Part shown: positions 5,257 through 10,535 of the stretch, piece after piece
Layout: the number at the start of each line of letters is the position of its first letter
Position numbering within the stretch: position 1 is the first letter of the stretch
Origin: Phenylobacterium sp.
Lineage (GTDB): Bacteria > Pseudomonadota > Alphaproteobacteria > Caulobacterales > Caulobacteraceae
Direction of reading: 5' to 3'
DNA: 38,691 nucleotides
Assembly: GCF_030651755.1 (NCBI RefSeq)
Contig: NZ_JAUSBZ010000111.1
Coordinates: 1 to 38,691 of the forward strand
Program-made: the position numbers and the translations under genes
The notes under the pieces: model-generated
What the model was told of the DNA's origin: nothing
Seen by the model: only the letters and a program-made list of their open reading frames with translations
Database searches by the model: none

Positions 5257-5684
5257 GAGGGGTCTTCCGAGCTTGGGCTTGGGATACGGGGACCCCTTCG
5301 GGAAGGGCTCCAGCGTTCCACAGAGCCTCCAAGCCTGACTCTGCGTATGAGAAACGCCCTTGCGAACACTTGGTTGCTGCAAGCAGCAGTAGGGCCAATG
5401 CTCGACCCTTAAATTGAGACCCAGGACTGGATGTGCTGGGTCAGGAAACCGACAGGACGTCAGCCAAACGAAGGCGGGATCTGCCGAACGCCAGTCCGGG
5501 TTGTGCGCATTCGTCTTGGACCTCACCCTAGGATTGGTTGAGCCGAATTACTCCCGCCACCGCAACTTGTGTGCTAGGTGTATTGGACTAATGGCGATTT
5601 TCTGAAGCCGTCGATCTTCGGCGCGCAGGATCATCGTTCCCGGCCACGGATTGCGCGCTCGCAAGCCCCCGGTTGGCTGAAAGA
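5257..5684. other. 428-bp intergenic region between divergent genes
   Basis: This gap separates the minus-strand CVNH-protein gene from the plus-strand histidine kinase gene and should hold both promoters. I found no RNA gene, no good coding frame and no GGAAC-N16/17-CGTT stress promoter for either gene. It contains a single GTTCC (GGAAC on the minus strand) near 5312-5316 without a partner CGTT at the right distance. Confidence 0.5.
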
Positions 5685-6752
5685 ATGGTTATGCCGATTC
5701 ATCGCGATGCTGTGCAGGGCCTCGGTCTGGCGATCGTCGCCTCATCGACATCGCCCCTGGTTTTGCTGGACGGCGATCTTCAGGTGGTCGGGGCGAGCAC
5801 GTCCTTTTTCCGCGCCTTCCACATTGACGCGGACAGCGCGCCCGGCCGCCGGCTTCTCGACCTCGGAGACGGGGAGTGGAATGTGCGACAACTGCACTCC
5901 CTGCTTGACGCCGTCGGGTCTGGCGCGGCCGAGATCGACGCCTACGAGATGGATCTGGCGACCGGTCGCGGCGACCCGCGCCGCCTCGTGCTCAACGCCC
6001 AGAAGCTGAACTTCGGGGATGAGACCCACCGCTACATCCTGCTCTCCGTCGTCGATGTGACTGACGCCCGCATCGCCGCCAAGCTCAAGGACGATCTTCT
6101 CCGGGAAAAGGCGATCCTGTTGCAGGAGCTGCAGCATCGGGTGGCCAACAGCCTGCAGATCATCGCCAGCGTGATTCTGCAGAGCGCCCGGAAGGTCAAT
6201 TCCGACGAGACTCGGCTGCATCTGACAGACGCCCATAATCGGGTGATGTCGGTGGCGTCCCTGCAACAGCAGCTGACCGCCTCAAGACTCGGCGAGGTCG
6301 AGCTGCGGGCCTATTTCCGCAAGCTGTGCGACAGCATCGGCGCCTCGATGATCCGCGACCACGACCAGCTGGTGCTGGAGGTGAAGGCCGATGACAGCAC
6401 CAGTGAGGCCGATGTGTCGGTGAGCCTGGGACTGATCGTCACCGAGCTGGTGATCAATTGCCTCAAGCACGCCTTTCCCGGCGGACGGCTGGGCAAGATC
6501 GAGGTCGGCTATGAGTCCCGCGGACCCAATTGGACCCTGTCGGTGGCGGACAACGGCGTCGGAATGCCCAAGGACGCCGCGAGCGCGACGCCTGGACTGG
6601 GCACCAGCATCGTGGACGCCCTGGCCCATCAACTGGACGCCAAGGTCAGGGTGATGGACGCCCATCCCGGCACGATCGTTTCAGTGGCCCACACCCAGAT
6701 CGCCGCCGTCGCTGATGAGGACGAGAGCGATCTTCCGCAGGCCGCGGGCTAG
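5685..6752 (+). CDS. Soluble PAS / HisKA_2 sensor histidine kinase
   Basis: About 355 residues with no membrane segments, so it is cytoplasmic. Residues about 12-130 look like a PAS sensor (SPLVLLDGDLQVVGAS through HRYILLSVVDVTDARI). The dimerisation helix LLQELQHRVANSLQIIASVI carries the phosphoacceptor His151 in the HisKA_2 pattern. The ATPase domain shows LIVTELVINCLKHAF (N box) and VADNGVGMP, then GLGTSIVDALA. HisKA_2/HWE kinases in alphaproteobacteria often feed the PhyR general stress pathway, and the neighbouring EcfG-type sigma gene supports that reading. Starts at TTG 5673, ATG 5685 and ATG 5691 are all possible; none has a strong ribosome site. The gene converges on the sigma-factor operon with 7 bp between stops. 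No PhyR-like response regulator is adjacent. Confidence 0.85.
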   Translation: MVMPIHRDAVQGLGLAIVASSTSPLVLLDGDLQVVGASTSFFRAFHIDADSAPGRRLLDLGDGEWNVRQLHSLLDAVGSGAAEIDAYEMDLATGRGDPRRLVLNAQKLNFGDETHRYILLSVVDVTDARIAAKLKDDLLREKAILLQELQHRVANSLQIIASVILQSARKVNSDETRLHLTDAHNRVMSVASLQQQLTASRLGEVELRAYFRKLCDSIGASMIRDHDQLVLEVKADDSTSEADVSVSLGLIVTELVINCLKHAFPGGRLGKIEVGYESRGPNWTLSVADNGVGMPKDAASATPGLGTSIVDALAHQLDAKVRVMDAHPGTIVSVAHTQIAAVADEDESDLPQAAG

Positions 6753-6759
6753 CCGCGCT

Positions 6760-7011
6760 CTACGGTTTTTCCACGGGGTCTGGCGTCGCCTCGGCAGGCT
6801 CGCCGAGATCGGTCTCCGGCGCGGTCGGATGGCCGAGCTTCTTCACATAGGCCTTGTGTTCAGTGACCAGGGCGCTTGGCGCAGGATGGGCCTCTTCGGC
6901 GCCGAGGCCATAGGCTTGGGCGCCGGGTTGCGTAGCGACCTGCCCGGACTCCTCGGACGCATCGCTCAAACGCGTAGTCGAAGAGGCGGGAGGCTTGGGA
7001 TGTTCGGCCAC
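6760..7011 (-). CDS. Unknown small disordered protein downstream of the stress sigma factor
   Basis: An 83-residue protein rich in Pro, Ala, Glu and Ser, likely disordered, with one more structured stretch LVTEHKAYVKKLG. It starts at GTG 7011, with a strong ribosome site AGGAG six bases upstream, which is the main reason for calling it real. It lies 80 bp after the sigma gene on the same strand, so co-transcription is likely. It does not show the NepR anti-sigma pattern, and I recognise no family. A role tied to the sigma factor is possible from position only. Confidence 0.6.
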   Translation of the reverse strand: MAEHPKPPASSTTRLSDASEESGQVATQPGAQAYGLGAEEAHPAPSALVTEHKAYVKKLGHPTAPETDLGEPAEATPDPVEKP

Positions 7012-7091: not shown

Positions 7092-7613
7092 CTAGATGCG
7101 TACGGCGTCGGAAGTCCCCCCCGAGGATTCGCCCTCGTCCTCCAGCAGCCGCTGCAGCTTGATGCGAGCGCGGTTCACCCGGCTCTTGATGGTGCCCACT
7201 GCGCAGCCGCAGATCTCGGCGGTCTCCTCGTAGCTGAGGCCCGCCGCGCCCACGAGGATCAGGGCCTCGCGATGTTCCAGAGGCAGTTGCGCCAAGGCGG
7301 CCTGGAGGTCTTGCATGGCCAGGCTCCAATCCTGGGTCGGCGGGCTGCGCAGGAGCTTGGCGTAGTCCCCGTCCTCGTCACGAACCTCCCGACGGCGGCG
7401 TGTGAGTTGCGAGTAATAGGTGTTGCGCAGGATGGTGAAGAGCCAGGCCCGCAGATTGGTGCCGGGTTCGAAGCGATCGCGATTGCTCCAGGCCTTGATG
7501 AGGGTGTCCTGCACCAGATCATCGGCGTCGGCGCCGTTATGGCTGAGCGACCAGGCGAAGGCTCTGAGGGCTGGAATCATCGCCACCACTGCGTCGCGCC
7601 AACTGTCCGTCAT
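7092..7613 (-). CDS. EcfG-type (general stress) ECF sigma factor, SigT/SigU-like
   Basis: This 173-residue protein has sigma region 2 at about residues 8-75 (ADADDLVQDTLIKAW, LRAWLFTILRNTYYSQLTRR) and region 4 at about 100-158 (LPLEHREALILVGAAGLSYE, EICGCAVGTIKSRVNRAR). The region 4 wording is typical of the EcfG/ECF15 group, which controls the alphaproteobacterial general stress response and is normally held by the anti-sigma NepR until phosphorylated PhyR removes it. The region upstream carries a clear EcfG promoter, so the gene probably autoregulates or is driven by a paralogue, as SigU is by SigT in Caulobacter. NepR and PhyR are not encoded nearby, which makes a secondary paralogue as likely as the master factor. 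Confidence 0.9.
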   Translation of the reverse strand: MTDSWRDAVVAMIPALRAFAWSLSHNGADADDLVQDTLIKAWSNRDRFEPGTNLRAWLFTILRNTYYSQLTRRRREVRDEDGDYAKLLRSPPTQDWSLAMQDLQAALAQLPLEHREALILVGAAGLSYEETAEICGCAVGTIKSRVNRARIKLQRLLEDEGESSGGTSDAVRI

Positions 7614-7663: not shown

Positions 7664-7688
7664 AACGTGGCGATAGTTTTTCCGTTCC
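7664..7688 (-). promoter_or_regulatory. EcfG-type promoter for the sigma factor gene
   Basis: Read on the minus strand, GGAAC (7684-7688) is followed after 16 bases by CGTT (7664-7667), matching the EcfG consensus GGAAC-N16/17-CGTT. The -10 element lies about 50 bp before the sigma start codon, leaving a leader of roughly 45 nt. This implies autoregulation or control by another EcfG paralogue. Confidence 0.8.
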
Positions 7689-7721
7689 GGGTTGCGCCGA
7701 GCGACCCCAGCCCCGACCTTA

Positions 7722-7747
7722 GGAACGCGACGCGCTGGCTTGGCGTT
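7722..7747 (+). promoter_or_regulatory. EcfG-type promoter for egtBD
   Basis: GGAAC (7722-7726), 17 bases, then CGTT (7744-7747). It points toward egtBD, with the -10 element about 80 bp before the start codon at 7827. It is divergent from the sigma promoter, the two -35 boxes being 33 bp apart. This places ergothioneine synthesis under probable general stress control. Confidence 0.75.
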
Positions 7748-7826
7748 CATCTTTGCGCCCTCGACGGAGGGCGGACGCCGGCGACCTTGGGGGCCGGAAC
7801 CAGCGATGCTGCAGGGGAGGGGTGGA

Positions 7827-10046
7827 ATGGCGCCTTCGGACGACGCAACCATGACCCACCCGCCCCGGTCAGGGGTGGGGGAGGACCGCCTCGAACGCTA
7901 TCTGGCGTTGAGGGCGCGCAGCCAGCACCTGGCGCGGGACCTGTCGGCTGAGGATCAGCTGGCCCAGTCCATGCCAGACGCCAGCCCCACCAAATGGCAT
8001 CTGGCCCACACCACCTGGTTCTTCGAGACCTTCCTGCTGACGCCGCATCTGCCGGGCTATCGCGTCTTCGACGAGCGGTTCGGCTACCTGTTCAATTCCT
8101 ATTACGAGGCCCTGGGACCCCGCCAGCCGCGACCCCAGCGGGGCCTGTTGACCCGTCCGTCCCTGGAACGGGTCATGGCCTACCGCGCCCATGTGGACGA
8201 GGCCATGACCCGCCTGCTTCTGTCAGGCGCCGAGGATTTCGCCGGTCTGCTGGACCTGGGGATCGCCCATGAGGAACAGCATCAGGAGCTGATGCTGATG
8301 GACATCCTCCACCTGTTCGCCCAGTCCCCCCTGAGGCCGGCCTATGGGCGTGCGAGCCCGACGCCCCCGGTCGAACCGGCGGGCGAACTGACCTTCGTCG
8401 GGTTCGCCGGCGGCCTGGTGGAGATCGGTCATGGGGGCGGACGTTTCGCCTTCGACAACGAAGGCCCTCGGCACAAGGTCTATCTCGCGCCCTTCAGTCT
8501 GGCTGATCGACTGATCACCAACGGGGAGTGGCTGCGCTTTATCGAGGACGGCGGCTATGAGCGCGCCGAATTGTGGCTGTCCGATGGGTGGGCGTGTGTG
8601 CAGGCGGAGGGCTGGGCCGCGCCGCTCTATTGGGAGCCCGGGCCCGAAGGCTGGCGGGTCATGGGGCTGCAGGGACTGCGGCCGATGGACCCCGATGCCC
8701 CCGTGGCCCACCTCAGCTACTTCGAGGCTGACGCCTATGCCACCTGGGCGGGCGCCCGTCTGCCGACAGAGGCCGAGTGGGAGCATGCGGCGGGTCAGAT
8801 CCCCGTGCAGGGCGTCTTCCTGTCCCGGGCCACGCCGGCGCCGACCGCGGCGCGGGGTGAGCGGGGCGCCTTGCGTCAGTTGTACGGGGACCTGTGGGAA
8901 TGGACCCGCAGCGCCTACGGCCCCTATCCCGGTTTCGCCCCGGCGAGTGGGGCGGTGGGGGAGTACAATGGCAAGTTCATGAGCGGACAGATGGTGCTGC
9001 GCGGCGGCGCCTGTGTGACCCCGCCGGGCCATGTGCGCGCCACCTATCGCAACTTTTTCCACCCGCATCAGCGATGGATGTTCTCGGGCCTTCGCCTGGC
9101 CAGGGACGGCGCGGCGCCGGCCCCCCGTCGGAGCGCCTTTGAGGCCGATGTCCTATCGGGCCTGTCGCGCAAGCAGAAGTCCGTGCCCCCGAAGTACTTC
9201 TACGATGCGCCTGGCTCGGCGCTGTTTGAGGAAATCTGCGAGCTGCCGGAATACTATCCCACCCGGACCGAGCTGGCCTTGCTACGGCAGGTGGCCCCCG
9301 AAATGGCGTCCCATGTGCCGGCGGGCGCAGCCCTGGTGGAGTTCGGCAGCGGGGCCAGCCTCAAGACCCGCCAACTCCTGGACCACGCCCCTCAGATCGC
9401 TGTCTACACGCCCATCGACATCAGCCCCACCGCGCTGGACGCTGCCGTGGCGAGCCTGCGCGCCGACTATCCCAATCTGGCCTTGGCGCCGCTGGTGGAG
9501 GACTTCACCACCGCCCTTGATCTGCCCGCAGCGGCGCAGGAACGACCGACCTTCGGCTTCTTTCCCGGCTCGACCATCGGCAACCTCCTGCCTGAGGAGG
9601 CCGTGGAGTTTCTGGCCAATGCCCGACACCTGTTGGGCGACGGCGCGCGGTTCCTGGTTGGCGCTGATCTGGTCAAGGGCGAGGACGTTCTTGTGGCGGC
9701 CTATGACGACGCCCAGGGGGTGACGGGCGCCTTCAACCTCAACCTTCTGGCGAGGATGAACCGCGAACTGGCGGCGGACTTCGACCTCCGAAACTTCACG
9801 CACAGGGCGGTCTGGAATCAGGCCCTGTCACGGGTCGAGATGCATCTGGTGTCCCGGTGCGATCAGAGCGTTCAGGTCGCTGGGCGGCGGTTCGACTTCA
9901 CCTTGGGCGAGACGATCCATACGGAGAACTCTCACAAGTTCACCCCGGAGGGTCTGGAGGGGCTGGCGTCGCGGGCGGGTTGGCGGCTGGAGGCCCGCTG
10001 GATCAGTGAGGCGCCGGCCTTCGGGCTCTTCCTGTTGGCGGCCTGA
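7827..10046 (+). CDS. egtBD: Fused EgtB-EgtD ergothioneine biosynthesis enzyme
   Basis: A 739-residue protein, start ATG 7827 with GGAGG six bases upstream. Residues about 20-160 are a DinB-like domain with iron ligands in KWHLAH (His58/His61) and HEEQHQ (His148, His152). Residues about 185-430 are the FGE-sulfatase domain (LPTEAEWEHA, YGDLWEWT, GKFMSGQMVLRGGACVTPPG, WMFSGLRLARD). Together they make EgtB, the oxygen-dependent sulfoxide synthase acting on hercynine. After a linker of about 8 residues, residues 434-739 are EgtD, the SAM-dependent histidine trimethyltransferase: PPKYFYD, LPEYYPTRTE, VEFGSGASLKT, PGSTIGNL, and TENSHKF with the Glu and Ser used for histidine binding. Both halves look complete. 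Separate egtB and egtD genes are usual, and fungal Egt1 has the reverse order. EgtA, EgtC and EgtE are not nearby. Confidence 0.9.
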   Translation: MAPSDDATMTHPPRSGVGEDRLERYLALRARSQHLARDLSAEDQLAQSMPDASPTKWHLAHTTWFFETFLLTPHLPGYRVFDERFGYLFNSYYEALGPRQPRPQRGLLTRPSLERVMAYRAHVDEAMTRLLLSGAEDFAGLLDLGIAHEEQHQELMLMDILHLFAQSPLRPAYGRASPTPPVEPAGELTFVGFAGGLVEIGHGGGRFAFDNEGPRHKVYLAPFSLADRLITNGEWLRFIEDGGYERAELWLSDGWACVQAEGWAAPLYWEPGPEGWRVMGLQGLRPMDPDAPVAHLSYFEADAYATWAGARLPTEAEWEHAAGQIPVQGVFLSRATPAPTAARGERGALRQLYGDLWEWTRSAYGPYPGFAPASGAVGEYNGKFMSGQMVLRGGACVTPPGHVRATYRNFFHPHQRWMFSGLRLARDGAAPAPRRSAFEADVLSGLSRKQKSVPPKYFYDAPGSALFEEICELPEYYPTRTELALLRQVAPEMASHVPAGAALVEFGSGASLKTRQLLDHAPQIAVYTPIDISPTALDAAVASLRADYPNLALAPLVEDFTTALDLPAAAQERPTFGFFPGSTIGNLLPEEAVEFLANARHLLGDGARFLVGADLVKGEDVLVAAYDDAQGVTGAFNLNLLARMNRELAADFDLRNFTHRAVWNQALSRVEMHLVSRCDQSVQVAGRRFDFTLGETIHTENSHKFTPEGLEGLASRAGWRLEARWISEAPAFGLFLLAA

Positions 10047-10235: not shown

Positions 10236-10457
10236 CTAGCCCTCCGATGCGCCATCATCTTCACGGCGGCCGCCGCCGCGGGAAGCCTCTCCGCCCTTGC
10301 GACCGGCCGATGCGGCGAGATCGCGATCCTTGGCGAAGCTGCGCTTTTCGCCTGGGACGCTGGCGCCGCCCTTGCGCGCGATTTCGCGGCGACGCTCGGG
10401 GTTCATGGCGGCGAAGCCTCGACGGGCGCGGGGGGGATTTTGATCGGCGATGCTCAT
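10236..10457 (-). CDS. KGG-repeat stress protein (GsiB/Con-10-like)
   Basis: A 73-residue, very hydrophilic protein starting at ATG 10457, with AGGAG seven bases upstream; the longer frame to 10523 lacks such a site. It contains the stress-induced KGG repeats: RRGFAAMNPERRREIARKGG, then a second degenerate unit SAGRKGGEASRGG, with SFAKDRDLAA between them. KGG-motif proteins in bacteria are typically induced by general stress regulons and are thought to act as small hydrophilic protectants; the molecular role is not settled. Its position near the stress sigma factor and egtBD fits this. A degenerate EcfG-like promoter lies upstream. Confidence 0.85.
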   Translation of the reverse strand: MSIADQNPPRARRGFAAMNPERRREIARKGGASVPGEKRSFAKDRDLAASAGRKGGEASRGGGRREDDGASEG

Positions 10458-10535
10458 GTGGTCACTCCTGATAGGCGGCGTCGGCGCCCTGAGTGACCCT
10501 CCGGACCCGGAAGGCTCACACAAGGCTCCGCTCTA

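Follow-up and report, generated by a model that had tools for sequence, protein, structure and literature searches.

In a genome of Phenylobacterium sp., two matches to the promoter pattern GGAAC-N16/17-CGTT lie back to back between the gene for an EcfG-type sigma factor (herein designated sigma2) and the egtBD gene for ergothioneine synthesis. Do these boxes form a shared stress-control region, and which sigma factor would use it? The original prediction was that one stress sigma factor drives both itself and ergothioneine synthesis from there. We analyzed the whole stretch of DNA, referred to as the window (38,691 nucleotides, contig NZ_JAUSBZ010000111.1), together with the rest of its genome assembly (3.24 Mb in 164 contigs) and a collection of related loci and genomes. 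The sequences make it probable that sigma2 and the enzymes of ergothioneine synthesis belong to the general stress response of alphaproteobacteria by way of a divergent pair of EcfG-type promoters.

Two boxes and the genes that they face

The genes and elements of the locus are listed in Table 1. Box sequence, spacing, distance to the start codons (50 bases from the sigma-facing box to the sigma2 ATG at 7613, and 79 bases from the egtB-facing box to the egtBD ATG at 7827) and location on opposite strands were all found as predicted, and the pattern search detected no third exact EcfG box in the window. We rejected the idea of one bidirectional promoter serving both genes of the window, since its two boxes are separate. 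The window contains 2 matches to the GGAAC/CGTT pattern versus 0.64 expected (spacers 15-18), a count which is by itself unremarkable, given that 14 out of 100 shuffled windows carried two or more. Throughout the genome, 52 exact boxes (spacers 16-17) were counted on both strands versus 25 for the reversed pattern.

Table 1. Features of the sigma2-egtBD locus, with positions in the window
Feature	Position	Strand	Basis or remark
PAS-HisKA_2 histidine kinase	5673-6752	plus	convergent with sigma gene
Small reading frame, GTG start, downstream of sigma2	6760-7011	minus	conserved in near kin
sigma2, EcfG-type (ECF15-like) sigma factor gene	7092-7613	minus	Pfam domains and tree
EcfG-type promoter box GGAAC-N16-CGTT	7664-7688	minus	faces sigma gene; exact match
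Spacer between the two -35 elements, 33 bases	7689-7721	none	
EcfG-type promoter box GGAAC-N17-CGTT	7722-7747	plus	faces egtBD; exact match
GGGGAGGGG, likely ribosome binding site of egtBD	7814-7822	plus	read from the sequence
Fused egtB-egtD gene, 739 aa, ergothioneine synthesis	7827-10046	plus	TIGR03440 and TIGR03438
KGG-repeat (stress-induced acidophilic motif) small protein	10236-10523	minus	adjoins egtBD

The egtBD gene is a single reading frame in the order EgtB-EgtD, and both parts exceed the curated cut-offs (573.6 bits against 360 for EgtB, TIGR03440; 390.2 bits against 290.9 for EgtD, TIGR03438), so that the predicted identity of the two enzymes stands. The cut-offs for OvoA (ovothiol) and SenA (selenoneine) were not reached by egtBD, with 94.8 versus 400 for OvoA N-terminal and 343 versus 420 for SenA. 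Since most of the EgtD matches listed are in frames of more than 700 aa, the fusion of EgtB and EgtD appears to be common in Caulobacteraceae.

Sigma2 has the architecture of ECF sigma factors, with sigma domains 2 and 4 alone (PF04542, 66.6 bits; PF08281, 54.9 bits); the only other domain found was PhyR_sigma2 (50.4 bits), and the protein resembles the sigma-like domain of PhyR. As expected for a gene of the EcfG (ECF15) type, it is preceded by a GGAAC-N16/17-CGTT box. The Pfam domains and the placement in the tree (see below) back the assignment of this gene to the EcfG type.

The canonical EcfG of the same genome is encoded on another contig (C46), directly after nepR and divergently from phyR. 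The same GGAAC/CGTT boxes stand before phyR and before nepR-ecfG, and this locus therefore serves as an internal control, indicating that the motif is the general-stress motif in this genome. The only PhyR over the cut-off and the only clear NepR of the genome are both encoded on C46, a second match to the NepR profile (contig C163, E 0.04) being at noise level. The two loci have the box type in common, but NepR and PhyR belong to the C46 locus; no NepR-like frame above noise was found in the window, and by this measure the sigma2 locus is not a canonical general stress response locus. Sigma2 and the canonical EcfG are about 45-47% identical, and in the alignment they agree at 16 of the 19 residues of the region 4 stretch AEICG..RAR, which we take to be the recognition helix.

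Conservation of the boxes at related loci

When genome contigs were scanned with the sigma protein, 180 loci were confirmed; we retained the best 80 (L036-L115), and the sample therefore favours close relatives. Sixty-six of these best 80 (L036-L101) come from Phenylobacterium, other Caulobacteraceae and bacteria with less exact names whose sigma proteins are close (hereafter the closest relatives) and the other 14 (L102-L115) from other alphaproteobacteria; L038 and some other loci end at contig ends. Of the 66 closest relatives (among the best 80 of the 180 loci), 61 have egtB in divergent orientation to the sigma gene, and these 61 together with the window make up the set of 62 divergent pairs in which boxes were counted, anywhere between the matched parts of the sigma and egtB genes.

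The exact sigma-facing box is present in 60 of the 62 loci, the exact egtB-facing box in 47 (it is missing in 15) and both in 45, versus means of 0.20, 0.23 and 0.01, respectively, after dinucleotide shuffling, and the reversed pattern occurred in one locus on one strand. After removal of similar intergenic regions, 40 regions were left, of which 39 carry the sigma-facing box, 26 the egtB-facing box and 25 both. The boxes enclose 55 (sigma-facing) and 46 (egtB-facing) distinct spacers, and are thus maintained amid changing surroundings. The motif scan of relatives, suggested with the original prediction as a check, thus found both boxes kept at most of the loci, and this conservation argues for a shared stress-control region. 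The 14 loci from other alphaproteobacteria have no egtB nearby, and the 300 bases upstream of their sigma match contain no exact box; in most of them this stretch holds nepR.

The gaps between the two -35 elements in the 45 two-box loci fall into classes of 8-9 (3 loci), 20-22 (8 loci) and 33-35 bases (29 loci), 40 of the 45 in total, and the 33-base gap of the window belongs to the last class. Because the classes step by about 12-13 bases and not 10.5, we do not claim that the two boxes keep a constant helical phase.

The bases flanking both -35 elements are partly conserved; in the 33-35 class, for instance, GCAA.CC precedes the sigma -35. In some relatives (L054, L065 and others) the sigma-facing box might fire in both directions, since it can be read on both strands as an exact box at 2 of the 60 loci and as a box with a single mismatch at 25 of the 60.

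The spread of the egtB-facing box over the family was followed at 30 Caulobacteraceae egtB loci, where the box was sought within about 200 bases. Exact boxes were found in 3 of the 10 loci with sigma2 beside egtB (0.03 after Markov shuffling) and in 7 of the 20 loci without it (0.02 after shuffling; opposite strand, 1 of 20). For other alphaproteobacteria, 30 loci were chosen from the 61 out of 142 genomes with an egtB match, and 5 of them carry the exact box (0.06 after Markov shuffling; opposite strand, 2 of 30). The egtB box is far above chance, yet it is absent or inexact in many relatives. Its occurrence without an adjacent sigma2 in Caulobacteraceae suggests that the canonical EcfG may suffice for its use.

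The sigma2 group, its link to ergothioneine genes and its NepR-like neighbours

Within the genus of the window, EgtD was found in 32 of the 39 genomes sampled. Sigma2, called at E of at most 1e-55, is present in 28 of these 32 versus none of the 7 genomes lacking egtD (Fisher p 2.1e-5, not corrected for kinship), and by comparison of coordinates it adjoins egtD in all 28. In one other genus (g3), sigma2 was detected in 4 of 12 genomes, all four beside egtD, and in a further one (g22) in none of 14. Since 2 of the 13 EgtD-lacking genomes of other genera retain a sigma2, and one genome (G030) carries sigma2 and egtB on separate contigs, the tie between sigma2 and ergothioneine is strong but not absolute. 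The exact egtB box was found in none of the four genomes of the window's genus with egtBD but without sigma2; one of them has GCAAC-N17-CGTT before egtB.

The tree of sigma factors consists of 127 rows, drawn from alternate loci of L036-L115 and from further selected ones, with rows of less than 140 residues and copies left out and a named SigU not among them. The egt-linked sigma factors of Caulobacteraceae form one group of 47 rows (100/91), 4 of which are without egtB in the fetched stretch, and the canonical EcfGs of the family form a separate branch (98/99). Sigma2 is nested in a larger group of 66 rows (95/93) together with PhyR/NepR-linked EcfGs of Bosea, Xanthobacteraceae and others; it is 60-64% identical to the sigma factors of L102-L115, and 62% identical to an EcfG of Bosea in one pairwise comparison. 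With a midpoint root and several long branches, the tree allows the direction of this history to be inferred only loosely, and an old duplication and a transfer are both possible as the origin of sigma2.

In 34 of the 66 closest relatives (from the best 80 of 180 loci), sigma2 is directly followed by a NepR-like gene in convergent orientation, which in none of the 34 has an EcfG box before it. In two cases, L082 and L087, its product scores above the Pfam NepR cut-off. When the remaining 32 loci were searched again, NepR-like matches were detected in L042, L085, L067 and L099, the latter two about 0.9 kb away from the sigma gene, and a weak one in L096. PhyR is encoded in the fetched flank of 7 of the 66 loci (L081, L082, L083, L087, L091, L093 and L097), some of the 66 having short flanks; the PhyR of L081 is cut by the locus end, and L093 has PhyR and no egtB in its stretch. 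A second PhyR near egt was found in two genomes of the family, G011 and G018, which are probably those of L079 and L081, the locus and genome samples overlapping.

No NepR match was detected beside sigma2 in the window, nor in the kin nearest to it (L036, L037, L038 with its short contig, L040 and L094); the tree neighbours L058, L064 and L090 have a NepR-like gene there. The small gene downstream of sigma2 is common to the window, its nearest kin and these three neighbours. It lies about 80 bases from the sigma gene in the window, and the gap at this position is longer in L058 and L064, several times so in L058, and contains the NepR-like gene. On the simplest reading, the lineage of the window has lost this NepR-like gene.

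The PAS-HisKA_2 kinase of the window, of a class that has been reported to act in general stress responses, was set aside as a part of the module: among the 66 closest relatives (of the best 80) only L093 gave a match, 27% identical (E 1e-5 or better; some loci with short flanks).

Predicted use of the boxes and comparison with known systems

In the general stress scheme, phosphorylated PhyR captures NepR, thereby freeing EcfG. What follows on transcription from the boxes, on the pairing of sigma factor and box, on the course of the NepR change and on the role of the locus in physiology is inferred from the sequences. Under stress, phosphorylated PhyR would bind NepR and release the canonical EcfG encoded on C46, which would transcribe sigma2 and egtBD from the GGAAC/CGTT boxes. 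Newly made sigma2 would then boost the transcription of egtBD and probably also its own, such self-activation being possible as predicted from its own box. Since the lineage of the window seems to have lost the NepR-like gene, sigma2 is expected there either to come under the canonical NepR or to be governed mainly by its promoter. Sigma2 was probably once a separately gated switch, as suggested by the convergent NepR-like gene, and sometimes a PhyR nearby, in many relatives. More tentatively, and rather less likely than not, Caulobacteraceae may carry a general-stress switch private to this one small antioxidant. A second EcfG, equipped with a NepR and at some loci also a PhyR of its own, would have evolved into a module around the ergothioneine genes, and in the lineage of the window it would have turned into a promoter-controlled amplifier upon loss of the anti-sigma factor.

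As for the claim that one sigma factor drives both itself and ergothioneine synthesis, the boxes and the gene identities held, but the single sigma factor is called into question by the canonical EcfG with the same boxes on C46. Two versions are still in play, and in one of them, the single-sigma loop, sigma2 and not the canonical EcfG would be the main user of both boxes, forming a private positive loop on itself and egtBD. We regard this version as unlikely: the tight linkage to egtBD, the NepR-like gene adjoining sigma2 in 34 of 66 relatives (best 80 of 180) and the missing egtB box in all four sigma2-less egtBD genomes of the genus would fit it, but egtB boxes stand without adjacent sigma2 in other Caulobacteraceae and other alphaproteobacteria, the genome does encode a canonical EcfG with the same boxes, and a self-activating sigma factor ungated by an adjacent NepR, as here, would be expected to run in unstressed cells.

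Sigma2 might instead be a plain orthologue of SigU of C. crescentus, lying next to egtBD by accident. Both are second EcfGs preceded by an EcfG-type box, and the orthology is still compatible with the published grouping of SigU with SigT and also with Rhizobium etli EcfG1 (PMC3892343, in the text consulted). The egt-linked sigma factors, however, form one group apart from the canonical EcfGs in our tree, which is without a named SigU, and 61 of the 66 closest relatives (best 80 of 180) have egtB as the neighbour of sigma2, so that we regard this reading as quite improbable. The ordinary count in the window would also allow the boxes to be accidental matches, or relics that do not act as promoters. 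This deserves hardly any credence, because exact boxes recur at the related loci with diverged spacers at frequencies which exclude chance.

The preferred reading, in which the canonical EcfG opens both promoters and sigma2 adds to the output, has partial precedents, as publications on two sphingomonads already report that egtB and egtD depend on EcfG (PMC7083833, PMC6599016). According to the text consulted, both genes are EcfG-dependent by transcriptomics in Sphingopyxis granuli TFA (PMC7083833), and in Sphingomonas melonis Fr1 a TIGR03440 protein and a probable methyltransferase (rows #0597 and #0598) are among the 50 strongest EcfG-dependent genes, with log2 ratios of -4.0 and -3.9 (PMC6599016). 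The motif scores of both S. melonis genes are below the cut-off for likely direct targets (6.61 versus 10 for the TIGR03440 gene), and the text consulted of that paper names no ergothioneine, TIGR03440 being read as EgtB from the profile result obtained here (PMC6599016). In these sphingomonads, as here, ergothioneine genes are tied to EcfG; an adjacent sigma gene or an EgtB-EgtD fusion, both present here, is not described in the text consulted of the two papers. An egtBD mutant of Methylobacterium is described, in the part consulted, as highly sensitive to both heat and irradiation (PMC4621440).

What is new here is the group of egt-linked EcfGs, with a NepR-like partner in relatives: in the open-licence literature, we found no report of an egt-linked EcfG, with or without its own NepR, nor of ergothioneine control in Caulobacteraceae. 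Among the control genomes, which contain Caulobacter vibrioides, an EgtD match was found only in E. coli and Methanosarcina acetivorans. Assuming the same 14 controls, work on Caulobacter may have missed the link because C. vibrioides gave no EgtD.

Additional EcfG copies are common and poorly explained, according to the text consulted (PMC3892343). Tied to one biosynthetic output by gene order, co-occurrence and promoter, sigma2 offers a concrete testable case, that of a stress-response sub-branch dedicated to a redox buffer, the antioxidant ergothioneine. In the texts consulted, sigU of C. crescentus requires SigT and carries the SigT motif, a single gene having appeared SigU-dependent under carbon starvation (PMC3073932), and the nepR2-ecfG1 unit of Sphingopyxis granuli has the box (PMC7083833). 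As with SigT/SigU and with EcfG1/EcfG2 of Sphingopyxis, to the extent that these sources describe them, the accessory EcfG here stands under a promoter of the GGAAC-N16-CGTT type. In apparent contrast to those paralogues, sigma2 falls outside the canonical EcfG group of its family, lies beside ergothioneine genes and is faced by a convergent NepR-like gene in 34 of the 66 closest relatives among the best 80 of 180 loci.
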